From Eggerthellaceae bacterium (lineage in GTDB: Bacteria; Actinomycetota; Coriobacteriia; Coriobacteriales; Eggerthellaceae): DNA of 43,402 nt. The DNA is taken from the NCBI GenBank assembly GCA_022644775.1, contig JALCHN010000013.1, positions 1 through 43,402 of the forward strand, read 5' to 3'. The position numbers and the translations under genes were made by a program. Every line of letters starts with the position of its first letter. Positions within the stretch are counted from its first letter, which is position 1. The notes below the pieces were generated by a model, which was not told where the DNA came from, did no database searches, and saw only the letters and a program-made list of their open reading frames with translations. Positions 3,661 through 36,080 of the stretch are shown in pieces.

Positions 3661-5223
3661 CTAGCCGTTGAGCTTCTGGGCGAGCATCTGGTTGATGAGC
3701 TTGGGATTGCCCTGGCCGCGCGTGGCCTTCATGCACTGGCCCACGAAGAAGCCGAGCAGACCGGTCTTGCCGCCCTTGTAGGCGGCGACCTTGTCGGGAT
3801 TGTCGGCGAGCACCTTGTCGATCACGGCCTCGAGCGCGCCGGTGTCGGAGACCTGCTTCATCCCCTTTTCCTCGACGATCTGGGCGGGGTCCTTGTCCTC
3901 GTCGAGCACGGCCGCGAGCACCTGCTTGCCCTGTTTGGACGAGATGGCGTCGCTCGCGAGCAGGCCGACGAGCTCGACCGCGCGCGCCGGCGAGAGCGGG
4001 CTTGCGGACAGGTCGAGGCCGTCGTTGGCCATGGCGGCCAGGTCGTTGATGATCAGGTTGGCGAGCGGCTTGGCGAGCTTCGCGTCGGCCGTTTCCATGC
4101 AGGCCTCGAAGAAGTTGGCCGTCACGCGATGCTCCACCAGGTGGCGGGCATCGTAGGCCGAAAGGCTCCAGGTCTCCTGGAAGCGCTTGACCTTCTGGTC
4201 GGGCAGTTCGGGAAGCTTGGCGCGCACGCGCTCGATGAATTCGTCGGACAGGTCGTAGGGCGCCAGGTCGGGGTCGGGGAACATGCGGTAGTCGTCGGCC
4301 GTTTCCTTGGTGCGCATCACGATCGTGCGCTTCTTCGACGCGTCCCAGTGGCGCGTTTCCTGGTAGATCACGCCACCCTCTTCGAGCACTTCGGCCTGAC
4401 GGCAGATCTCGTAGAGAAGGCCGTCGTGCAGGCTCTTGAAGGAGTTGATGTTCTTCAGCTCGGTCTTGGTGCCCAGCTGGTCGGTGCCGCGACGGCGCAG
4501 GCTGATGTTGCCGTCGGCGCGGATCGAGCCTTCCTCCATCGAGCAGTCGGAAATGTTCAGGGCCAGGAAGATCTGGCGCAGCTTTTCCATGAACAGGCGC
4601 GCCTCTTCGGGGCTGCGGAGGTCGGGTTCGGTCACGAGCTCGATCAGCGGCGTACCTGCGCGGTTGTAGTCCACCAGCGAATGTGTGGCGCCCTCGATGC
4701 GGCCTTCGGCGCCGCCCACGTGGATCATCTTGCCGGCATCCTCTTCCATATGGATGCGGGTGATGCCCACTTTGGCCGTGTAGCCGTCTTCGGTGCGCGT
4801 GACGTTTTCGAAGGTCTCGCCGGGCGCGAGTTCGGCCACGCCGTAGCGCTCGTTGATGTTCTTCTCGTCGACGTCCAAGTCGAGATGCCCGCGCATGCAG
4901 AAGGCCTTGGGGCCCTGCGTGGTTTGGAAGTTCTTGGCCATGTCGGGGTACATGTAGCCCTTGCGGTAGAACATCGTGTGCTTTTCGATGTCGCAGTTGG
5001 TCGCCAGGCCGGCGAGCACGATCGATTCGATGGCCGCCTTGTTGGGCACGGGCAGGGCGCCCGGCAGACCCAGGCACACCGGGCAGGTGTGGGTGTTGGG
5101 CGCCGCGCCGAACTCGAGCTTGCAGCCGCAGAACATCTTGGTCTCGAGCTTGGTGAGCTCGCAGTGCACTTCCAGGCCGATGACCGGCTCCCAGTCCTTC
5201 AGGACCTCTTCTATTTTCTTCAT
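3661..5223 (-). CDS. gatB: Aspartyl/glutamyl-tRNA amidotransferase subunit B
   Basis: 520 residues, normal family length. GatB binds Glu-tRNA(Gln) or Asp-tRNA(Asn), activates the misacylated residue with ATP and amidates it with ammonia released by GatA. The N-terminal cradle domain shows the zinc-binding cysteines C32, C34, C47 and C50 (MFCGC...TCPVC), the GLEVHCEL segment and HMEEDAGK. The C-terminal YqeY-like tRNA-binding domain fills the last 150 residues and ends in the conserved region with FVGQ and ATRGQGNP. The ATG directly follows the gatA stop (TAGATG), so it is translationally coupled as the last gene of gatCAB. Its presence suggests Gln- and/or Asn-tRNA is made by transamidation in this organism. 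Confidence 0.97.
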   Translation of the reverse strand: MKKIEEVLKDWEPVIGLEVHCELTKLETKMFCGCKLEFGAAPNTHTCPVCLGLPGALPVPNKAAIESIVLAGLATNCDIEKHTMFYRKGYMYPDMAKNFQTTQGPKAFCMRGHLDLDVDEKNINERYGVAELAPGETFENVTRTEDGYTAKVGITRIHMEEDAGKMIHVGGAEGRIEGATHSLVDYNRAGTPLIELVTEPDLRSPEEARLFMEKLRQIFLALNISDCSMEEGSIRADGNISLRRRGTDQLGTKTELKNINSFKSLHDGLLYEICRQAEVLEEGGVIYQETRHWDASKKRTIVMRTKETADDYRMFPDPDLAPYDLSDEFIERVRAKLPELPDQKVKRFQETWSLSAYDARHLVEHRVTANFFEACMETADAKLAKPLANLIINDLAAMANDGLDLSASPLSPARAVELVGLLASDAISSKQGKQVLAAVLDEDKDPAQIVEEKGMKQVSDTGALEAVIDKVLADNPDKVAAYKGGKTGLLGFFVGQCMKATRGQGNPKLINQMLAQKLNG

Positions 5224-6711
5224 CTAGGCACCTGCCTTCACGTCGGCGAAATCGGGCGCGACGCGCGCGGTGCCGTACGCCTCCTCGAGCGCTGCGGCCA
5301 CGCGCAGCATGTTCATGTCGTGGAACGCCGGAGCGATGAGCTGGGCGCCCACGGGCATCTGGGAATCCTCGCCCAGGCCCACCGGCACGCTCATGCCGCC
5401 GTTGCCGGCGATGTTGATCGAAATGGTGTACAGGTCGGTCGCGTACATCGTGGCTGGGTCGGAAATCTGGCCGAAGGCGAACGCGGTCTGCGGCGCCACG
5501 GGCGCCAGGATGCAGTCGACCGTTTCGTAGGCGCGCTCGTAGTCCTGGGTGATCAGGGTGCGCACCTGCTGGGCCGGGTAATAGTATTTGTCGTAGACGC
5601 CGGCGGAGAGCAGGTAGCTGCCCAACATGATGCGGCGGCGCGCTTCGGGGCCGAAGCCCTTGGCGCGGCTGGCTTCGTACTGGCCGGCCAGGCTCTTGTG
5701 GCCCGGATCGCAGAAGCCGTAGCGCACGCTGTCGAAGCGGGACAGGTTGCTGAAGGCCTCGCAGGGGGCGATCACGTAGTAGGCGCTGATGGCGGCGCGC
5801 ACGTGGGGCAGCTCGACCTCCACGATTTCGGCGCCCATCTCGCGGAGCTTTTCGGCGGCGCCCTCGATCGCGTGCTTCACTTCGGAGGTGAGGCCGGCGG
5901 CGTCCATGAATTCGGGCACGATGCCGATCTTCATGCCCGACACGCCGGCGTCGAGCCCGCGCGTGAAGTCGATCGTGACGTCCTGGCTCGTGCAGTCGCG
6001 CTCGTCGCGGCCGGAAATGGCGTTGAGCGCGAGGGCCGCATCGTGCACGCTGCGGGCGAAGGGGCCTACCTGGTCGAGCGAGCTGCCGAAGGCCACCACG
6101 CCGTAGCGGGACACCACGCCGTAGGTGGGTTTCACGGCGACCACGCCGCAGAAGCTGCCCGGCTGGCGGATCGAGCCGCCCGTGTCGGAGCCCAGCGTGA
6201 CCGTGGCCATGCCCGCGGCGACCGCCGCCGCCGAGCCGCCCGACGACCCGCCCGGCACGCGAGAGGTGTCCCAGGGGTTCTTGGTGGTGCCGAAGGCGCT
6301 CGATTCGGTAGTGGAACCGAAGGCGAACTCGTCCATGTTGAGCTTGCCGAGCGGCAGGGCGCCCGCGTCGATCGCGCGCTGGACGCAGGTGGCCGTGTAG
6401 GGCGACACGTAGTTTTCCAGCATGTGGGAGGCGCAGGCGGTGTGGGTGCCCGCGAGGTTCATGTTGTCCTTGAAGGCCACCGGCACGCCGGCGAGCGGGC
6501 CCAGCTCGTCGAAGGCGCCCGCCGCGATCGCGGCGTCGACCTCGTCGGCCTTGGCCAGCGCCGCTTCGGGCGTGACTTCCAGGAAGGCGTTCACGGTGCC
6601 GTCGACCGCGTCGATGCGGGCAAGCGACTGCTCGGCCACCTCGCGGGCGCTGAACTCCTTGGCGGCCAGCCCCGACCGGATGGCTGCGATATCCATGGTG
6701 CCGAATTCCAT
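5224..6711 (-). CDS. gatA: Glutamyl-tRNA(Gln) amidotransferase subunit A
   Basis: 495 residues. It is the glutaminase subunit of GatCAB, of the amidase-signature family. The catalytic triad is visible as K81 (VAFKD), cis-Ser S156 and nucleophile S180 inside VPGGSSGGSAAAVA (152-165) and GSDTGGS (174-180). The ATG at 6711 shares its A with the TAA stop of gatC (TAATG), and GGAGG from the end of gatC lies 8 nt upstream; an alternative Met five codons later lacks this spacing. Ammonia produced here is channelled to GatB. Confidence 0.97.
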   Translation of the reverse strand: MEFGTMDIAAIRSGLAAKEFSAREVAEQSLARIDAVDGTVNAFLEVTPEAALAKADEVDAAIAAGAFDELGPLAGVPVAFKDNMNLAGTHTACASHMLENYVSPYTATCVQRAIDAGALPLGKLNMDEFAFGSTTESSAFGTTKNPWDTSRVPGGSSGGSAAAVAAGMATVTLGSDTGGSIRQPGSFCGVVAVKPTYGVVSRYGVVAFGSSLDQVGPFARSVHDAALALNAISGRDERDCTSQDVTIDFTRGLDAGVSGMKIGIVPEFMDAAGLTSEVKHAIEGAAEKLREMGAEIVEVELPHVRAAISAYYVIAPCEAFSNLSRFDSVRYGFCDPGHKSLAGQYEASRAKGFGPEARRRIMLGSYLLSAGVYDKYYYPAQQVRTLITQDYERAYETVDCILAPVAPQTAFAFGQISDPATMYATDLYTISINIAGNGGMSVPVGLGEDSQMPVGAQLIAPAFHDMNMLRVAAALEEAYGTARVAPDFADVKAGA

Positions 6712-27366: not shown

Positions 27367-30300
27367 TCACTTGTCCCATCCTTCTACCATTTCGGCGCTG
27401 ATGAGCAGCGCGAAGCGCACGTTCCCATAGCTGCCGTTGGTTACCCACCTGCCCGCGTCGAGCACGCGCACGCGCACGCCGTCGGCCCGCACGATGTGGA
27501 AGGACACGAAGTCGCGGCTGGAACGGGACCCACCGCTTCTTTGCGCGCGGATGACGGTCTCCACCCGATCGCGGTCGTCAGGGGCCACGATGGCACGGAA
27601 ACTGCCACCGCAGTAGGACATGAAGCCCTCGATGCTGTCGCAACCGAACAGGTCGGCGCACAGGCCGTTGGCGAACACGATTTCTTCAGATGCATCGTCC
27701 TTGAAAACGAGCAGGGCCGCGGGAATCCCCTCGACGATATCGTCGAGGCTGAAGCCGATCATGGTGCGCGCATCGGAGCGCATGCCGTCGTTGTATTCGA
27801 ACGCGCCGCCCCGTGCGAGCTTGGCATGGTAGAGCGCCACGTCGGCCTTCCGGCAGAGCTCGACGAATGATTCCCGGCTCCCGCTGCGCCGCACGTAGCC
27901 CGCACAGCAGCGGTAACGGTAGGTCTCCCCGTCCGCTTCGAACGCGTGCTCCCGGCTGAAGAAATCAGCTATACGGGCCATCGCGTCGTCGTCGGGGTCG
28001 ATCATGATCGCCTGGAACTCGTCGCCGCCGAAGCGCGATACGTACGGCTTGCCGAACAGATTCTGCAACTCGCCGGCGAGCGACTCGAGCGCCGCGTCGC
28101 CCACATGGTGGCCGAAGCGATCGTTGAAGACCTTGAAGTTGTCGATGTCGACGGCCACGAGCGCGACGTCGTCGGCCCCCGAAAGGAAGAGGCGCTCGGC
28201 CTTTTCGTCGAATCCGCGGCGGTTGAGCACGCGCGTGAGCGCATCGGTGCGCGACTCGCGCATGAGCACCGCGTTCTCGCGGCGCAGGCTTTCGTTGGCG
28301 GTGCGCAAATCGCCGCCCGCCCGCAGCCCGGCAGCCTGCGACGCACTCGCGCGCCCCGCAGGGGCGAACCGCGCTTCGGCATAGGCGGTCATCTCGCCGA
28401 TATCTTCGCTTTCCGAATAGAGGGCCGTGCCCACCATGGCGTACACGGTACAGGGCGCGCCCGCTACCTGGGTAATCGCGCCCAGGACGCTTTCCACGGC
28501 ATCGCAGACCTCCCCCAGGCGCTTGGCGTCGCAGGGACTCACCACCATCGCGTAGCGAGTGGGGTAGCTGCGCCCCACCGTTACGTCCGGGCCCAGCGTC
28601 TGCAGGGCGCCGGCCACGGCACGCTGCAATTCGTCGAAGGCTTCCGTTCCGTAATCGTCGAGAAAGCGATGCGCACCCAGCAGCTGCACGACCGCGAGGC
28701 CGAAGTCCTCGCGCGTGCGGGCGAAGGCGCGCTCGCGCTGCACGCAGACGCGGTGGATGCCGTTCGCGTTGGGCAGCCCGGTTATGCTGTCTATGTAGGC
28801 CTGGTTGCGCAGGGGCTTGAGCTCCTCTATGCCCACGTTATCGAGAGCATCGATCATATTGGACACGTCGAAAAAGCGGCCCAGCAGTCCCACGATCCTA
28901 TCGCCGCGGTAGACGGGAGCCTTGGTGGCCATGATCGAATGAACCTCATCGCCCACCAGGCAGGTGCCGACCACGTTCGAAACGACGGTTCCATGCTGCA
29001 GAACGTCGAGCTCATCGTGCTTGAAAGGTTCGGAGTCGGGGTGCCAGCCCATGTCTTCGTCGTTTTTGCCCAGAATGTCGGATAGTTCGAGGTTGTAGTA
29101 GCGCAGGAAGGTGCTGTTGGCGCCCAAAAATCGCCGGTCGGCGTCCTTCCAGAACACGCCCGATGTCGCCGAAGACAGCGATGCCGTCCACAGTTCTTCC
29201 GCCGAAAGATTTCCCGCCTGCACGGGAGTGGCGAGTCGCGATTGCTCGAGGGCTGCCTGCGTCAGGCCCGCCGCATCGGTCATCACGCAGAGCAAGAAGC
29301 CATCGACCGAAGAGGACAAAGGCGTGCGGCACAACACGACGCGGCGCAACTCATAGACGCCTTCCTCCACACGCAGACGGAAGAAGCCGCTTAAAATCCC
29401 CTTCGACGCTCCGTCGACGCGCTGAGCGACCGTGGCCGGATCGGCAAACGCGCGGAATGCCTCGACATCGGACGGATAGATCAAACTCTGGGCAATGCGG
29501 TCGATCTCTTCGGGGTACGACCGCGGCCCGCGCTCGCCATCGCTTATCCCATTCGCGCTGTACCAGGTGACGATGCGACCGGAAGCGAGGTCGACCACAT
29601 CGATGGTGGCGATCAGGGGACTCACGACGCCGAACAGGTCTTCGGAACTCGCAACGCCCCCGCTCGACACGACGCGCGCTCGAATAAGGTAGGCGCGCCC
29701 GTAGGGGCGATCCGACACGCACCGCATGCGCACGGCGATTTCCTTGTCGTCCCATACATCGATAAACGTGCGCCCCTTGCCCATCCCCTCGGAAGCGCGC
29801 AGCCCTGCGCGCAAATGCCAGGCGACCGACGAATCGCCGGCAAGCCGGCGGTCGATTTGAAGAGCATCGCTCACGTTCAGGTAGGTTTTGAGCGCGCGGT
29901 TGGCGTACACCGTTCCGAGAGAGCCGTCGCGCTCGACGATAACGGCCACCGCTTCGTCCCGACCGTTCTGAAAACCGTCTTCGGGTCCATAGGGCGCAAG
30001 GCCGCCCTGCACGTCGACGCGCGCGATGTCGTCGAAGAGAAGGCGGGCAGGTGCCGCCAGATAGGAAAAGCCTTTACGGGAAAGGTTGCGTTCGGCCTGA
30101 GCCAGCGGCAGGGGACGCGCGCACCAGTACCCCTGGGCAAGCGAGCAACCCACCTCTTTGAGAAAGCGGAACTGATCTTCGGTTTCAACGCCTTCGGCCA
30201 GGGTCTTCAGGCCCAGATGCTTGGCCATTTCGACCAGATCGCCTACGAGCATGCGCGATTTCCCGCTTTCGGAGCGCAAGAAGAGCATGTCGAGCTTCAC

Positions 30301-31926
30301 ACAATCGAAATCGAAACGCTGAAGGGTGTTCAACGAGCTGTAGCCGCTGCCGAAATCGTCGAGCCACACCTCGTAGCCGCGCTCGTGGAAGATGCGCAGG
30401 TGCCGGGCGATGAGGTCCTCGTTATCCACGAGCGCCGTTTCGGTGATTTCGATGCGAATGAGGCGATGGGGCACGCGATGAGCCCCGAGGATCGCATCGA
30501 TGCGTTCGTGGATATCGGGAAGGTCGAGGTCGAAACGCGACAGGTTCACCGACACGGGCACGAAGGGAGCGAACTCACGCCGCTTCTCCTCGATGATCGC
30601 ACAGACTTGATCGAGTATGGCGAGGTCGAGCAGGTAGGCCTGGCGGGTGTGCTCGAGCACGTCGACGAACGCAGCCGGGGGCAGCATCCCATGAGTGGGA
30701 TCGTCCCAGCGGGCGAGCGCTTCGAATTCTTCCACCTTGCCCGAAAAGGTCCCGACCATCGGCTGCAGATACACCTTCACCCAGCCTTTGGCCACCGCTT
30801 CGCGCACATGGGTGGCCACGTAGTTTTCAACCGCAAGGCTCGTTTCCATCTGCCCCGAATAGCGGCGCCAACAGTTGTGGAAGTCCTCGCGCACGGTCCC
30901 CTTGGCGATTTTGGCGCGATCGAGCGCCTGCGACGTGCTCGTTTCGCTGCCGTCGATCGTATAGATGCCACCCGTCACGTTGACGCGATAGTCCTGTTCT
31001 TCCCTCATCTTGGCGTGCACGACGTCGACGAGGGCCTCTGCCCGATCGTCTTCCACGAGCGCGTAGAAATGGTCGGCTTCGGTGCGACAGGCGCAACCTT
31101 CGCCCGCCTCCTCTTCGAGCAGGGCGCCCAACCGCGTCAGCAGCCAATCGCCCCGGTCGTAGCCGCGAATCCGGTTGAAGGATTTGAAATCGGCAATATC
31201 GAGAAAGACGACCGCCTTAGGCGCAGCGGAAGAGCCTTCGCGGGCGGCGCGAATGGCCGCGTCGACCGCATCCGACATACCCCGCACATTGAGCAGCCCC
31301 GTGAGCCGGTCGCGGGTGGGCACCGCACAGTAATTCGTCCAGTGGCCCCGGCGTTCGAATTCCGCGGAAAGGATGAGGGCCGCCTGCTTCATGAGAAGCG
31401 CCCCGTCGCGAAAGACCGCAGGAGCCGGATGGTTGACGCCCACGAAGCCGCACAGCTCGCCTGCAACCGTAATCGGCGCAATGATGAAGGTATTGAAGCT
31501 TTCGCCCGCGAAGTCGCGCGCCACCGCCGGGTCGTGGGCGCGGAACGCATTGATGTCGGAAACGGCGTAGGCCTCCCCCGCCCGCAGCGCGTTCCATATA
31601 TCCGGTCGGTAGATAGATTCCGACATATCCTGCAAGTCGGCGCGCTGAGAGGGTACGCCCGTCGCGCACCATTCGAAGGTGTTCTGGTAAGTGCCGCGGC
31701 CGTTTATCTCGAACACGAAGGCACGATCGGCGCAGAATCCCCGCCCCAGCCGCGCGAGAAACACGTCGATGCGCTCGCGAGAGTCGCCTTCCCTGTTCGC
31801 CACCGTAACGGCGTCGTCGAGCAGCACGAGGCATTCCGCAAGATTCGATGGCGCTGATTCCGGCGCGTCTGGAAGTCGCAGAGGGCCATAGCCCCGACCG
31901 CCGCACGCTGCGTTAGCTTTCCCCAT
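27367..31926 (-). CDS. Giant soluble c-di-GMP turnover protein: GAF-GGDEF*-EAL-PAS3-GGDEF*-GGDEF-PAS
   Basis: 1519 residues, no membrane helix. Domains in order: GAF (about 30-190); degenerate GGDEF (203-345, EADHF at 283-287 in place of GGDEF); EAL (362-610) with E402-A-L, NLSRFD, EITET, DDFGSG (523-528), VKLD, AEGVET and a late Gln, so phosphodiesterase residues look intact; three PAS-like domains (about 655-755, 760-875, 910-1025); a second degenerate GGDEF (1040-1175); a canonical GGDEF (1222-1375) with GGDEF at 1300-1304 and no RxxD inhibitory site in front; and a C-terminal PAS (1390-1515). It can probably both make and break c-di-GMP, tuned by several ligands. The ATG overlaps the 3' end of the upstream cyclase by 14 nt and has only a weak binding site, which suggests translational coupling. 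Domain bounds are by eye. Confidence 0.88.
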   Translation of the reverse strand: MGKANAACGGRGYGPLRLPDAPESAPSNLAECLVLLDDAVTVANREGDSRERIDVFLARLGRGFCADRAFVFEINGRGTYQNTFEWCATGVPSQRADLQDMSESIYRPDIWNALRAGEAYAVSDINAFRAHDPAVARDFAGESFNTFIIAPITVAGELCGFVGVNHPAPAVFRDGALLMKQAALILSAEFERRGHWTNYCAVPTRDRLTGLLNVRGMSDAVDAAIRAAREGSSAAPKAVVFLDIADFKSFNRIRGYDRGDWLLTRLGALLEEEAGEGCACRTEADHFYALVEDDRAEALVDVVHAKMREEQDYRVNVTGGIYTIDGSETSTSQALDRAKIAKGTVREDFHNCWRRYSGQMETSLAVENYVATHVREAVAKGWVKVYLQPMVGTFSGKVEEFEALARWDDPTHGMLPPAAFVDVLEHTRQAYLLDLAILDQVCAIIEEKRREFAPFVPVSVNLSRFDLDLPDIHERIDAILGAHRVPHRLIRIEITETALVDNEDLIARHLRIFHERGYEVWLDDFGSGYSSLNTLQRFDFDCVKLDMLFLRSESGKSRMLVGDLVEMAKHLGLKTLAEGVETEDQFRFLKEVGCSLAQGYWCARPLPLAQAERNLSRKGFSYLAAPARLLFDDIARVDVQGGLAPYGPEDGFQNGRDEAVAVIVERDGSLGTVYANRALKTYLNVSDALQIDRRLAGDSSVAWHLRAGLRASEGMGKGRTFIDVWDDKEIAVRMRCVSDRPYGRAYLIRARVVSSGGVASSEDLFGVVSPLIATIDVVDLASGRIVTWYSANGISDGERGPRSYPEEIDRIAQSLIYPSDVEAFRAFADPATVAQRVDGASKGILSGFFRLRVEEGVYELRRVVLCRTPLSSSVDGFLLCVMTDAAGLTQAALEQSRLATPVQAGNLSAEELWTASLSSATSGVFWKDADRRFLGANSTFLRYYNLELSDILGKNDEDMGWHPDSEPFKHDELDVLQHGTVVSNVVGTCLVGDEVHSIMATKAPVYRGDRIVGLLGRFFDVSNMIDALDNVGIEELKPLRNQAYIDSITGLPNANGIHRVCVQRERAFARTREDFGLAVVQLLGAHRFLDDYGTEAFDELQRAVAGALQTLGPDVTVGRSYPTRYAMVVSPCDAKRLGEVCDAVESVLGAITQVAGAPCTVYAMVGTALYSESEDIGEMTAYAEARFAPAGRASASQAAGLRAGGDLRTANESLRRENAVLMRESRTDALTRVLNRRGFDEKAERLFLSGADDVALVAVDIDNFKVFNDRFGHHVGDAALESLAGELQNLFGKPYVSRFGGDEFQAIMIDPDDDAMARIADFFSREHAFEADGETYRYRCCAGYVRRSGSRESFVELCRKADVALYHAKLARGGAFEYNDGMRSDARTMIGFSLDDIVEGIPAALLVFKDDASEEIVFANGLCADLFGCDSIEGFMSYCGGSFRAIVAPDDRDRVETVIRAQRSGGSRSSRDFVSFHIVRADGVRVRVLDAGRWVTNGSYGNVRFALLISAEMVEGWDK

Positions 31927-33075
31927 CCTGTGTATGCTCTCCTTTGTTCGCGCGCTTAGCCTTATAGAGGTTGGCGTCCGCAAGGGCGAACAGCTCTTCG
32001 GACGTCCGAGCGTCCGCCCCCATATGGGAGGCGCCCACCGATACGGTAAGCGGGTAGGCAACGCCCGCCTTCTGCGCCGCGCGCACGACCGATTCTCTCA
32101 CCCGAGCGGCGAAGCTCTCTTCCTCCGCCGGGACCACATTCGCTACAATTGTAAACTCATCGCCGCCGTAGCGGGCAAGAAACGCATTCGGTTCGTCGGC
32201 AATGGCGCGCTTCAAACCCCGAGTGACCACCGCAAGAGCTCGATCGCCTTCCAAGTGACCATAAGTGTCGTTGATGTGCTTGAAGCCGTTGACGTCGACC
32301 ATGAAAAGGCTCACGTCGCCGTCGCCCGCCTTCATGCGCTCCCTCACGTGATTGAACAGCAGGTAGCGGTTGTTGAGGCCCGTAAGAGGATCGGTGGAAA
32401 TGAGCGTGTCGAGATAGCCGATGTAGATGACGACGAGGGCGAAGGTGGCTCCCGGCGCCAGGTAGGAAACCCCTGGGAGCGGGCAGCCCAGTATCGAAAA
32501 GGCGATAAGGGCAACGGGATAGAAAGCCAATAGAAACACGCGCTGTCGGTCGATCAACGACATTTTCGCGCGAGCCCACGCGCCGCAGGCCACGGCGCAG
32601 ACCAGCTCGACGGCAAGCAGGGCGTGAACGGCAATATCGAACGTATCGAGCGCGCGTACCTGGGTACCCTCCACGTAAATGAGGACGTGAGTGACCGGGG
32701 ACGCGCAGATGAAGGCGACGATGGCCGCCGTGATCACGTTGATTGTGAGCACGGCATAGGAACGCATCTGGTCAGAGACGTCAAGGTAATACACGAGCAA
32801 GATGAACCACGACCGCGCCGCCATGAAGATGAGCACGGCAGCCGCAAGCGCCACCGCAAGCGCTGCCGCCGCTTCAGCGAAACCGGGAAATCGGTCGGCA
32901 TGCCCAGATTGCCGGGAACAAGGGCGAGAGCGGCGGCAATGTGCCAGGCGAGCATGTTGCGCAGTTTGAGCTGGCGGAGCTGGCGGTCGCCGCGCTGCAC
33001 GACGCGCAGCAGGATATAGCCCATCACGCTCAGGCACAGAACGTCGAGCTGAAGCACGACACTTGGAAAATTCAC
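31913..33075 (-). pseudogene. Membrane diguanylate cyclase, apparently frameshifted
   Basis: The C-terminal GGDEF domain (RYGGDEFTIV, intact signature) and several membrane helices lie in one frame, which ends at 31913. The matching N-terminal membrane part (starting VLQLDVLCLSVMGYILLRVV and continuing LAWHIAAALALVPGNLG) lies in another frame, with a GTG start at 33075 behind AAGGGGGAG. The two frames meet around 32881-32895, where MPTDFP in one becomes DRFPGF in the other. Adding one base (for example to the CCC run) gives a continuous 387-residue protein with an N-terminal multi-TM sensor (about 7 helices) and a C-terminal GGDEF at 304-308. As read, translation would stop at 32734. Sequencing error, a real mutation, or a frameshift switch are all possible. 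Confidence 0.75.
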
Positions 33076-33082
33076 CTTTGAG

Positions 33083-33110
33083 AGCTCCCCCTTGAACGCA
33101 CGAGAGAGCT
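33083..33110 (-). promoter_or_regulatory. Hairpin masking the ribosome binding site of the cyclase
   Basis: On the minus strand AGCTCTCTC (33110-33102) can pair, with two G-U pairs, with GGGGGAGCT (33091-33083), which contains the AAGGGGGAG binding site of the GTG start at 33075. It lies just after the c-di-GMP riboswitch and is a natural translational expression platform. Confidence 0.5.
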
Positions 33111-33133
33111 TCCGCGCCGCAGTGGAACGGCTG

Positions 33134-33206
33134 GGTGCAGCTGGCTGCCATCGGATGGAAGGCCCTCTAGCTTTGCGTCACCGTCTTTCGACGGCTTTGC
33201 CAAAAT
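33134..33206 (-). ncRNA. Cyclic-di-GMP-I (GEMM) riboswitch
   Basis: On the minus strand the conserved parts come in order: GGCAAA (33201-33196); P2 stem CCGTC-GAAA-GACGG with the GNRA loop (33194-33181); the invariant GACGCAAAGC (33179-33170); then P3, GGGCC...CCAT-CCG-ATGG...CAGCC (33166-33143). The class I riboswitch binds one c-di-GMP between P1/P2/P3. It starts about 10 nt after the predicted start of transcription. The regulated gene is a membrane diguanylate cyclase, so the circuit would be feedback control by the product. No other copy of the motif was found in the window. Confidence 0.88.
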
Positions 33207-33222
33207 CATATTAGGAATCTTT

Positions 33223-33251
33223 ATTATAGAATGGTCGCCGCTCACCGAAAA
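33223..33251 (-). promoter_or_regulatory. Promoter of the riboswitch-cyclase-giant sensor operon
   Basis: A perfect TATAAT (33228-33223) on the minus strand; the -35 at about 33246-33251 (TTTTCG) is a weak match at 17-nt spacing. Predicted start near 33216, immediately before the riboswitch. Confidence 0.65.
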
Positions 33252-33424: not shown

Positions 33425-33613
33425 ATGGCAGAGGAGCTGCTTGAGGTTTCGCATGCGCTTGCGTTCGGCAGCGCCTGGAGATTGGGGGGGTCAAACCCAG
33501 GCCCCGCTCGTGGCGGGCGGCCACAGGCGCACGATGATCGTCCGTCGGTGCGCGCGATAGGCTCGCTCCATGTCCGCATTCAGCACCAGTCCCTCGAACG
33601 GCGCTTCGCCTAG
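33425..33613 (+). CDS. Possible leader ORF before the GGDEF-EAL gene
   Basis: 62 codons, starting with ATG behind a good AAAAGGAG site and ending in TAG 22 nt before the ATG of the large downstream gene. The first 20 residues (MAEELLEVSHALAFGSAW) look helical; the rest is Arg/Gly/Pro-rich and does not look like a folded protein. It resembles nothing I know. It may be an upstream ORF that affects reinitiation, a decayed gene start or chance. Confidence 0.3.
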   Translation: MAEELLEVSHALAFGSAWRLGGSNPGPARGGRPQAHDDRPSVRAIGSLHVRIQHQSLERRFA

Positions 33614-33635
33614 CAGCCGGGAGAGGCGCGAAACC

Positions 33636-36080
33636 ATGCAGAATACCGACGTAATGACGAGCTTAATCGGCCTCGCAAAGCTCACAAGCGAGAACAAGGC
33701 GTTTTTCAAATCGGCAGAATTCAAACGATCGATCGCCGAATACAACCTCACGGCTGGAATCGCCACCTCGGCGATCGCGAGCTTGGTGGGCGTCGCCGGC
33801 ATCGTGGGCAACACGCTCATCACACCGGTCGACACCGTTTACCCCGCGCTCCCCAATCTGGTCGTTTACATTCTTATACTGGTTGTCAATCTGCCGCACA
33901 TCGCCTTGCTCGCCCGCTGTCGGGCGCTGCGGGAAAAGCCCTCGCTCCTGTTGAACGTCGAATTGCTCAACCTGTGCTTGAACGCCGTCCTCGCCGGACT
34001 CACCGTACTCGACACGGAAATAGGAAGCAGCTTTTTCCTGGAATTCGTGCTCATCATGATTGCGATATTCATGATTCCCTATATCCGCAGGGGCAACGAA
34101 TTTCTCATTGCCGCGGTGAGCATCGTCGCCCTCCTATTCTTCGTGAGCCTCCCCAATCGGCCTATCGCTTGGCAAGACACCTATGACATCCTTATGTTCT
34201 ATTGCCTTTGTTGGGCAGGTCAGGTGATGCGGCGCTGGTGGTTCAACAGCACCCAGCTGCTCTCGCACCAGCCGTCCGAAACCAACGCGCACCTCAAAAC
34301 GAGCAGCCGCACCGACGAACTCACCGGCCTGCTCAACCGCACGGCGCTGCGCGAAGACTACCCCACCATCACAGGCCCGCGCACCGCCGTCGCGATGCTC
34401 GACATGGACGACTTCAAGGAGGTCAACGACCGCTTCGGCCACGAACGTGGAGATTCGGTACTCAGAGAGCTGGGTCGCACTATCACCGAATGTTTCAACC
34501 ATGCCAACGAACGTTGCTACCGCTACGGAGGCGACGAGTTTCTCGTGGTGGCCACCGGCGTCGACGAACAGGAGTTCACCGACAGGCTTTCTACCGTCGT
34601 AGGTGCCTACGGCAAACGCGTCACGCTAGGCGACCCGGAAAGCATCAGCGTGGGCTACTGTTACGGCGCCGTGGAAAACGAGCGCAACCTGCGCAGCTTC
34701 CTACGCGTGGCCGACGACAACCTCTACGCCGCTAAATCCGCCGGCAAGAACCGTGTGGTGGGAGAGGTATTCCACCCCGGCGTCACCGAAGCCGAAGCTT
34801 CCGACGACGAACGACGCCTGATCGACCCGCTTACCAACCTGCACAACTACACGGGCTTCGAACGCGTGCTCGCCGGCTCGAAGGAGAGCCTCTATCCGGG
34901 CAGCATCGTCTTCTTCGATATCGACCGTTTCCAGGACCTCAACAAGACATACGGCTATCATGGCGGCGACAAGGTGCTCGCGCACATCGCGCAGCTCATT
35001 GAACGCAACTTCCCCGGCTGCGCCGCCTGCCGCTACGACACCGACCACTTCGCGCTCTTCACCCGCGACGCCGACCCGCTGCCAGCCGCCCAAGCCGTGC
35101 AGAACGGCATCGCCCATGCCGTGCCCCACTTCTACATCTTCCTGCGTATCGGCATCTACCGTCTTGAGCCCGACTTCACCTTGGGCGACCTGACCAACGC
35201 CGTGGACAAGGCCAAATACGCTAGTGACACCCTGCGCCGCCAGCACGCCATGCTCTACCGCTACTATGACGGGAAACTCACCTTGGAACGCGAACGCGAG
35301 GCTTTCGTGCTCGGCCATTTCGACGAAGCCCTGAGCAACGGGGCAATCGCTCCTTACTTCCAGCCAGTCGTAACACTCGCCGACGGACGCTGCCACGGCT
35401 TCGAGGTGCTCGCCCGCTGGCAAGACCCCGAGCGCGGGACTCTGTCGCCCGCTGTGTTCGTGCCCGTGCTCGAGCGGTCCTTCGACACCTATCGGCTCGA
35501 TTCCTACATGCTCGACCGCGCCTGCGCCCAGCTCGCCACCCTGTCGCCGAAAGCGCTCGAATCCGCCTACGTCTCGTTCAACGTGTCGCGCAACGATTTC
35601 GCGATCGAAGACGTTGCCGCCACCGTCGACCGCATCGTGCGCGCGCATGGCATTTCGCCTCGTTCCATCCGCGTTGAAATCACCGAATCGGTGCTCAACG
35701 ACAGCAGCGATATTCGCCGAACCCTTTCCGACTTGCGCTCGCGTGGCTACCAGATCTGGCTCGATGACTTCGGGTCGGGCGAATCGTCGCTCAACGTGCT
35801 GAAGAACTACGAGATCGACGGGGCCAAGCTCGACCAGGCCTTCCTGCGAGACTTCGACAGCGACAACGAAAAGTCGCGGACGATCGTGCGCGCGCTCATC
35901 CAGCTGTGCCACACGATTGGCGTTCAAGCGGTGGTCGAAGGCGTGGAAACGGAAGAGCAGCTCGCGTTCGTGCGCCAGTGCGGCGGCGACATCGTCCAGG
36001 GGTACTACTACAGCAAGCCGATGCCGGTCGACGTCCTTGTGTCGTCGCCTTTCTGGAAAGGCCTGGAAAAGGAGGACTAG
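33636..36080 (+). CDS. Six-TM GGDEF-GGDEF*-EAL protein
   Basis: 814 residues. Six membrane helices (about 39-62, 69-94, 103-125, 131-150, 154-172, 179-198) form a MASE-like sensor. Then a canonical GGDEF domain (225-375, GGDEF at 298-302, preceded by RY), a degenerate GGDEF (395-540, DTDHF at 468-472), and an EAL domain (553-800) with E590-V-L (the common EVL variant), NVSRND, EITES, DDFGSG (710-715), AKLD and VEGVET. Both synthesis and hydrolysis of c-di-GMP look possible. GGGAGAGG lies 9 nt before the ATG at 33636; the frame open from 33570 has no binding site. It is divergent from the riboswitch operon. The C-terminus is complete and ends 20 residues after the EAL core. Confidence 0.9.
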   Translation: MQNTDVMTSLIGLAKLTSENKAFFKSAEFKRSIAEYNLTAGIATSAIASLVGVAGIVGNTLITPVDTVYPALPNLVVYILILVVNLPHIALLARCRALREKPSLLLNVELLNLCLNAVLAGLTVLDTEIGSSFFLEFVLIMIAIFMIPYIRRGNEFLIAAVSIVALLFFVSLPNRPIAWQDTYDILMFYCLCWAGQVMRRWWFNSTQLLSHQPSETNAHLKTSSRTDELTGLLNRTALREDYPTITGPRTAVAMLDMDDFKEVNDRFGHERGDSVLRELGRTITECFNHANERCYRYGGDEFLVVATGVDEQEFTDRLSTVVGAYGKRVTLGDPESISVGYCYGAVENERNLRSFLRVADDNLYAAKSAGKNRVVGEVFHPGVTEAEASDDERRLIDPLTNLHNYTGFERVLAGSKESLYPGSIVFFDIDRFQDLNKTYGYHGGDKVLAHIAQLIERNFPGCAACRYDTDHFALFTRDADPLPAAQAVQNGIAHAVPHFYIFLRIGIYRLEPDFTLGDLTNAVDKAKYASDTLRRQHAMLYRYYDGKLTLEREREAFVLGHFDEALSNGAIAPYFQPVVTLADGRCHGFEVLARWQDPERGTLSPAVFVPVLERSFDTYRLDSYMLDRACAQLATLSPKALESAYVSFNVSRNDFAIEDVAATVDRIVRAHGISPRSIRVEITESVLNDSSDIRRTLSDLRSRGYQIWLDDFGSGESSLNVLKNYEIDGAKLDQAFLRDFDSDNEKSRTIVRALIQLCHTIGVQAVVEGVETEEQLAFVRQCGGDIVQGYYYSKPMPVDVLVSSPFWKGLEKED

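Follow-up and report, generated by a model that had tools for sequence, protein, structure and literature searches.

A c-di-GMP-I riboswitch aptamer ahead of a frame-broken diguanylate cyclase gene and a giant GGDEF/EAL gene in an Eggerthellaceae bacterium

The window analysed here, the whole of a 43,402-nt stretch of DNA from an Eggerthellaceae bacterium, carries on its minus strand a c-di-GMP-I (GEMM-I) riboswitch aptamer. The aptamer sits in the 5' leader of a diguanylate cyclase (DGC) gene, 57 nt ahead of a GTG start at 33075, and this gene is followed by one encoding a giant protein with GGDEF and EAL domains, downstream of which lie ATP synthase genes. A divergent GGDEF-GGDEF(degenerate)-EAL gene (33570-36080, plus strand), conserved in a genome of the same genus (G070), adjoins the riboswitch operon; two or three c-di-GMP enzyme genes thus cluster beside the ATP synthase operon. 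The features of the locus are as follows.

33223-33228, minus strand: -10 box TATAAT, read from the sequence
33133-33211, minus strand: c-di-GMP-I (GEMM-I) riboswitch aptamer, matching Rfam RF01051 with 56.4 bits over the full model
33181-33194, minus strand: aptamer P2 hairpin CCGUC-GAAA-GACGG with its GAAA tetraloop, from the cmscan alignment
33103-33168, minus strand: possible competing helix of 11 bp between the P3 5' strand AGAGGGCcUUCC (33168-33157) and GGAAGCUCUCU (33113-33103), from the free fold of a longer leader
33083-33110, minus strand: 9-bp hairpin AGCUCUCUC/GGGGGAGCU that pairs the Shine-Dalgarno (SD) sequence GGGGGAG (33091-33085), fold -12.5 kcal/mol
32734-33075, minus strand: DGC frame A, with the GTG start at 33075 and the conserved N-terminus MNFPSVVLQLDVLCLSVMGYILL..., out of frame after about 32890, from the match to the Baileyella DGC and GC3
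32872-32925, minus strand: stretch holding a -1 frame shift and containing T_TTC_CCG at 32890-32884, from homologue alignment and sequence
31913-32890, minus strand: DGC frame B, with the remaining membrane domain and an intact GGDEF domain (PF00990, Pfam E 3.8e-32), stop TAA at 31915-31913
27367-31926, minus strand: giant GAF-GGDEF(degenerate)-EAL-PAS-GGDEF(degenerate)-GGDEF-PAS protein, from Pfam and start context

An earlier note on this DNA had proposed a c-di-GMP-I riboswitch within 33134-33251, an interval that takes in the aptamer together with the promoter region, the aptamer proper being confined to 33133-33211. The proposal is borne out by a cmscan search of the whole window with Rfam 15, in which RF01051 matches the minus strand at 33211-33133 (E 1.6e-8, model positions 1-87 of 87), above the curated gathering score of 35 bits, and is the sole Rfam match across the entire window. 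The GEMM elements that the note had named are all located in the aptamer: GGCAAA at 33201-33196, P2 with its GAAA loop, GACGCAAAGC at 33179-33170 and P3, whose strands lie around 33172-33161 and 33149-33139. On this evidence 33133-33211 is almost certainly a genuine GEMM-I aptamer. None of the 14 control genomes matches RF01051, and there is no genome with a demonstrated RF01051 signal among them. The position equivalent to G20 of Vc2, which bears on ligand selectivity, is G in the cmscan alignment (the first G of GGCAAA, 33201). Since A20G converts the cGAMP-selective GEMM-Ib to c-di-GMP selectivity (PMC6456294), c-di-GMP is the expected, and likely, ligand of this aptamer. A search of the source genome for c-di-GMP-II gave no match, but its control gave no signal either, so this negative is no evidence of absence.

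The perfect TATAAT placed by the note some ten bases ahead of the GEMM elements is confirmed at 33228-33223, 11 nt ahead of the aptamer match and 21 nt ahead of GGCAAA; a consensus promoter scan found no -35 partner for it, and transcription would start near 33216. Towards the start codon, AGCUCUCUC (33110-33102) is the strand that pairs with the SD of GTG 33075. When the upstream leader is dinucleotide-shuffled with the SD held fixed, an equally strong SD arm arises in 2.8% of the shuffles (z -1.9), and the stability of the leader as a whole resembles that of the shuffles (z 0.13). The suggestion that the hairpin at 33083-33110 hides the downstream binding site holds insofar as the hairpin is real and covers the SD, but folding shows no aptamer-dependent change in SD exposure: the SD stays paired in nearly every model ensemble, whether the aptamer is formed or not, its unpaired fraction being 0.00 with the aptamer forced versus 0.01-0.18 in free ensembles. 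The duplex between AGAGGGCcUUCC and GGAAGCUCUCU reaches -14.4 kcal/mol, and the fold that contains it differs from the SD-hairpin fold by no more than about 1 kcal/mol; it stands at chance level, 0.23 of shuffles giving as strong a duplex, and with this helix formed the SD still partly pairs with UUUUCC of the coding sequence. The pairing of the SD with and without the aptamer, together with the chance-level competing helix, means that the models support an SD-hiding platform in this leader and make ligand-driven switching of it only possible. Two other kinds of platform were considered and rejected, a transcription terminator, none lying between aptamer and start, and a downstream arm pairing with the aptamer 3' strand as in related copies, for which the window leader falls at a fraction of 0.68 of shuffles and is not above chance.

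The first gene does not run from a start codon as one continuous frame, a shift lying within 32925-32872. Frame A matches residues 8-53 of the DGC of Baileyella intestinalis (E 5e-15) and frame B its residues 70-381 (E 1e-59), while the fused product of the two frames aligns with the same protein from end to end (E 5e-75). A second intact homologue (G721) has a continuous frame and shares its N-terminus with frame A. Over 33075-32925, frame A has a GC3 of 0.80 and frame B one of 0.33; further downstream the value for frame B is 0.75. Judged by these comparisons, GTG 33075 is the true start of the DGC, and this assembly has the gene in broken form; frame A by itself gives a 113-aa product that ends at the stop at 32734. 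A 412-aa open reading frame at 31913-33151 was rejected as the DGC: its ATG at 33151 lies inside the aptamer, and its first ~90 residues have low GC3 and no counterpart in the Baileyella homologue; the frame break serves as a warning against annotating it. The motif RYGGDEF of frame B is of the GG(D/E)EF type, and the DGC has E-x-x-A (ADEPNAFLARYGGDEF) at the position expected for the RxxD inhibition site (I-site).

The giant gene begins at ATG 31926 with its own SD (AAAGGAG) and overlaps the end of the DGC by 14 nt. The motifs EAL, DDFG and EGVE can be read directly in the EAL domain of its product, and of the three GGDEF copies the last alone has an intact motif; control of this gene by the riboswitch is presumptive. 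The description of the locus as a c-di-GMP-producing operon, with a DGC and a giant GGDEF/EAL protein as the regulated genes, is thus accurate as to the GGDEF and EAL domains that follow the aptamer on the same strand, and fails as to the DGC, which is not intact here. Elsewhere in the source genome a partial EAL domain with an in-frame TAG (G000:C10:16665-16955) is probably a pseudogene, and no PilZ domain was found in that genome, against 14 GGDEF and 6 EAL domain matches.

GEMM-I is present in 14 of 138 genomes of the family and in 80 of 396 of the class, and the source genome has two copies. We surveyed 61 other copies, a non-random sample that comprises all family copies and mostly the best-scoring class copies, a few of them on contigs that end soon after the aptamer. 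A GGDEF enzyme is the first gene in four of these (L021, the source genome's own; L034, its orthologue in G070, fronting the same GGDEF gene; L119; and L127) and the second gene in one (L023). Several further copies stand before genes for large secreted proteins that carry Flg_new, SpaA or cell-wall-binding domains; four copies of a single genome, G063 (L024, L029, L032 and L033), each precede a large secreted protein, with Flg_new repeats in three. Behind L119 (G354:C29, minus strand) the GGDEF-EAL gene has an apparent in-frame TAG about 396 nt after the aptamer (…MMRER*DFFSNGQ…), a second case of an enzyme gene that seems to be broken behind a GEMM-I. The GEMM-I core has no exact match in viral contigs. 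In four leaders (L026, L027, L030 and L035) a downstream arm pairs with the aptamer 3' strand GGCAGCCAGUUGC (z -3.8 to -5.8), an ON-switch layout that makes them strong candidates for transcriptional ON switches; the arm of L026, for example, reads GCAGCTGGCTGC-TTTTTT and is complementary to that strand.

What is the history of the sensor and the enzyme at this locus? Synteny between the window and G070 takes in the divergent gene, the giant gene and the ATP synthase genes; the aligned blocks are separated by 907 bp in G070 versus 2159 bp in the window, and both aptamer and DGC are absent from the syntenic place. The membrane domain of the DGC has no close relative among the 138 family genomes. 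The best DGC homologue in a scan of genome contigs belongs to Baileyella intestinalis (L058), where a GEMM-I, the only one of that genome, lies about 1.5 kb upstream; between this GEMM-I with its terminator-like hairpin and the DGC, positions 4266-5809 hold a transposase gene bounded by inverted termini (GGACAAAAAACGTGTT...AACACGTTTTTTGTCC). A GEMM-I was also sought ahead of the G721 homologue, and none was found in the roughly 390 nt before the contig ends. Because the Baileyella DGC is preceded by its genome's only GEMM-I, sensor and enzyme recur together in a distant genome; from this comparison we infer a transfer of the pair and its direction. Tentatively, and with more doubt than confidence, we suggest that GEMM-I and one membrane DGC form a self-limiting unit that is acquired and lost as one block and recurs among gut-type bacteria of distant relationship, and that the GEMM-I copies found in the source genome all serve c-di-GMP metabolism and none of them surface or motility genes.

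For the action of the aptamer we lean slightly towards a translational OFF switch exerting product (negative) feedback on c-di-GMP metabolism, similar to that of Vc2. The transcript from near 33216 would open with the class-I c-di-GMP aptamer recognized by the covariance model, and binding of c-di-GMP would lock its P3 helix. With P3 locked, the pyrimidine strand at 33110-33102 would pair with the SD and close the GTG start, less DGC would be made, and the giant protein would also be reduced, through coupling or through decay of the transcript. In the ligand-free state, the P3 5' strand could pair with GGAAGCUCUCU and open the SD hairpin, a possible step that does not rise above chance. As the DGC is frame-shifted in this assembly, the switch would here be left with the truncated product to act on, and with the giant protein at most. 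The DGC being devoid of the RxxD inhibition site, feedback by its product could depend mainly on the RNA. The aptamer, the SD hairpin, the gene order and the frame break are present at the locus; what we infer is ligand binding in vivo, the OFF direction and the effect on the second gene.

Several observations speak for this OFF feedback: the RF01051 match, the SD-sequestering hairpin and the selectivity G; the position of both GEMM-I copies of the source genome in front of a GGDEF gene and then a GGDEF-EAL gene, set against the mere four of the 61 other surveyed copies (one of them L021 itself) that have a GGDEF enzyme first; the description of Vc2 as a translational OFF switch; the occurrence of the nearest DGC homologue found behind its own genome's only GEMM-I; and the lack of a terminator hairpin from aptamer to start, unlike in L026, L027, L030 and L035. 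Against it stand the nearly constant pairing of the SD whether or not the aptamer is formed, the competing helix at chance, the broken DGC frame, and G070, which keeps the giant gene without aptamer or DGC, so that this gene does not need the switch. The earlier claim that the enzymes are under the control of their own product therefore survives in part: the aptamer fronts GGDEF/EAL genes, but the DGC is broken and control of the giant gene is presumed. The reverse arrangement, an ON switch in which c-di-GMP binding exposes the start and gives positive feedback, as predicted for related copies that front cell-surface proteins, appears unlikely. It draws on the four leaders whose downstream arm pairs with the aptamer 3' strand, where ligand should prevent termination, and on L034, the leader of the G070 DGC, in which aptamer GUUGCAC could pair with GUGCAAU over the AUG, a pairing noted by eye and not significant in shuffles; the window leader has neither an arm for the aptamer 3' strand nor a terminator. 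That the RNA is a chance look-alike, or some RNA other than GEMM-I, is scarcely credible given an E value of 1.6e-8 across the full model and the GEMM-I aptamer upstream of the homologous DGC of another genome; no support for such a reading was found.

The frame break itself admits more than one explanation. Programmed -1 frameshifting at T_TTC_CCG (32890-32884) would make the full DGC and so place translation under a further control after the riboswitch. With its X_XXY_YYZ layout, the heptamer is in the frame and orientation that such slippage requires and falls inside the crossover stretch, and heptamers of this type number 5 in 4326 codons of window genes, which corresponds to about 0.02 expected per 18 codons. 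The two intact homologues, however, do without a shift, and an A-site CCG codon re-pairs poorly as CCC. A single base gained in the T or C run would yield an identical heptamer; mutation or assembly error is therefore the likelier cause of the break, and we regard programmed frameshifting as very improbable. More weight, though short of an even chance, belongs to a decaying module, in which sensor and enzyme arrived together, the DGC has since become a pseudogene, and the riboswitch survives by chance or just for the giant gene. The frame break, the lack of both sensor and DGC at the syntenic place in G070 and the insertion sequence between sensor and DGC in the Baileyella genome are consistent with such decay. 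Yet no stop interrupts the GGDEF frame before its end, its GC3 is high (0.75), and both the GGDEF motif and the core of the aptamer are preserved, so any decay would be recent; an assembly error of one base is just as possible.

How does the window copy compare with known systems? With the RF01051 consensus it shares a full-length match, GGCAAA, the GAAA-capped P2, GACGCAAAGC, P3 and the selectivity G. It differs in having U at the positions before GG where the Rfam consensus has A, a U found there also in related copies, and in its 5' flank, a short A+U stretch (AUAUGAUUUUGGC) with no evident P1 partner: no P1 pairing between 33211-33202 and 33138-33129 is evident by reading, and the Rfam model has those columns unpaired. 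Vc2 of Vibrio cholerae is described as a translational OFF switch (PMC9262584), and the two have in common a ribosome-binding site within a hairpin downstream of a GEMM-I aptamer. The window copy stands before another gene, has no platform sequence in common with Vc2 and no evident P1, which is central to Vc2, and its switching is a prediction. The second operon of the same genome (G000:C12, L021) has a GEMM-I followed 85 nt downstream, at +86, by a GGDEF-PAS gene and then by a GGDEF-EAL gene, and differs from the window operon in its unrelated N-terminal membrane domain, its other leader sequence and its intact reading frame. The Baileyella locus shares with the window the closest DGC homologue found and the upstream GEMM-I, but has a transposase gene between aptamer and DGC and a leader with a terminator-like hairpin rather than an SD hairpin. 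With the usual protein-level inhibition site lacking in the window DGC, the source genome would be a simple system for asking whether RNA can replace the I-site as product feedback. According to a 2019 review, c-di-GMP riboswitches rarely control genes for the metabolism of their own ligand, unlike most riboswitches (PMC6366702). Many GEMM-associated genes are nevertheless tied to c-di-GMP production, degradation or signalling, and a 2020 review lists production and degradation genes with the associations through which the ligand was identified (PMC7266159). The source genome offers a compact example, with enzymes of c-di-GMP metabolism behind both of the GEMM-I copies found in it, and the copy in the window is a new member of a known riboswitch class, in a role that is less common though already known.
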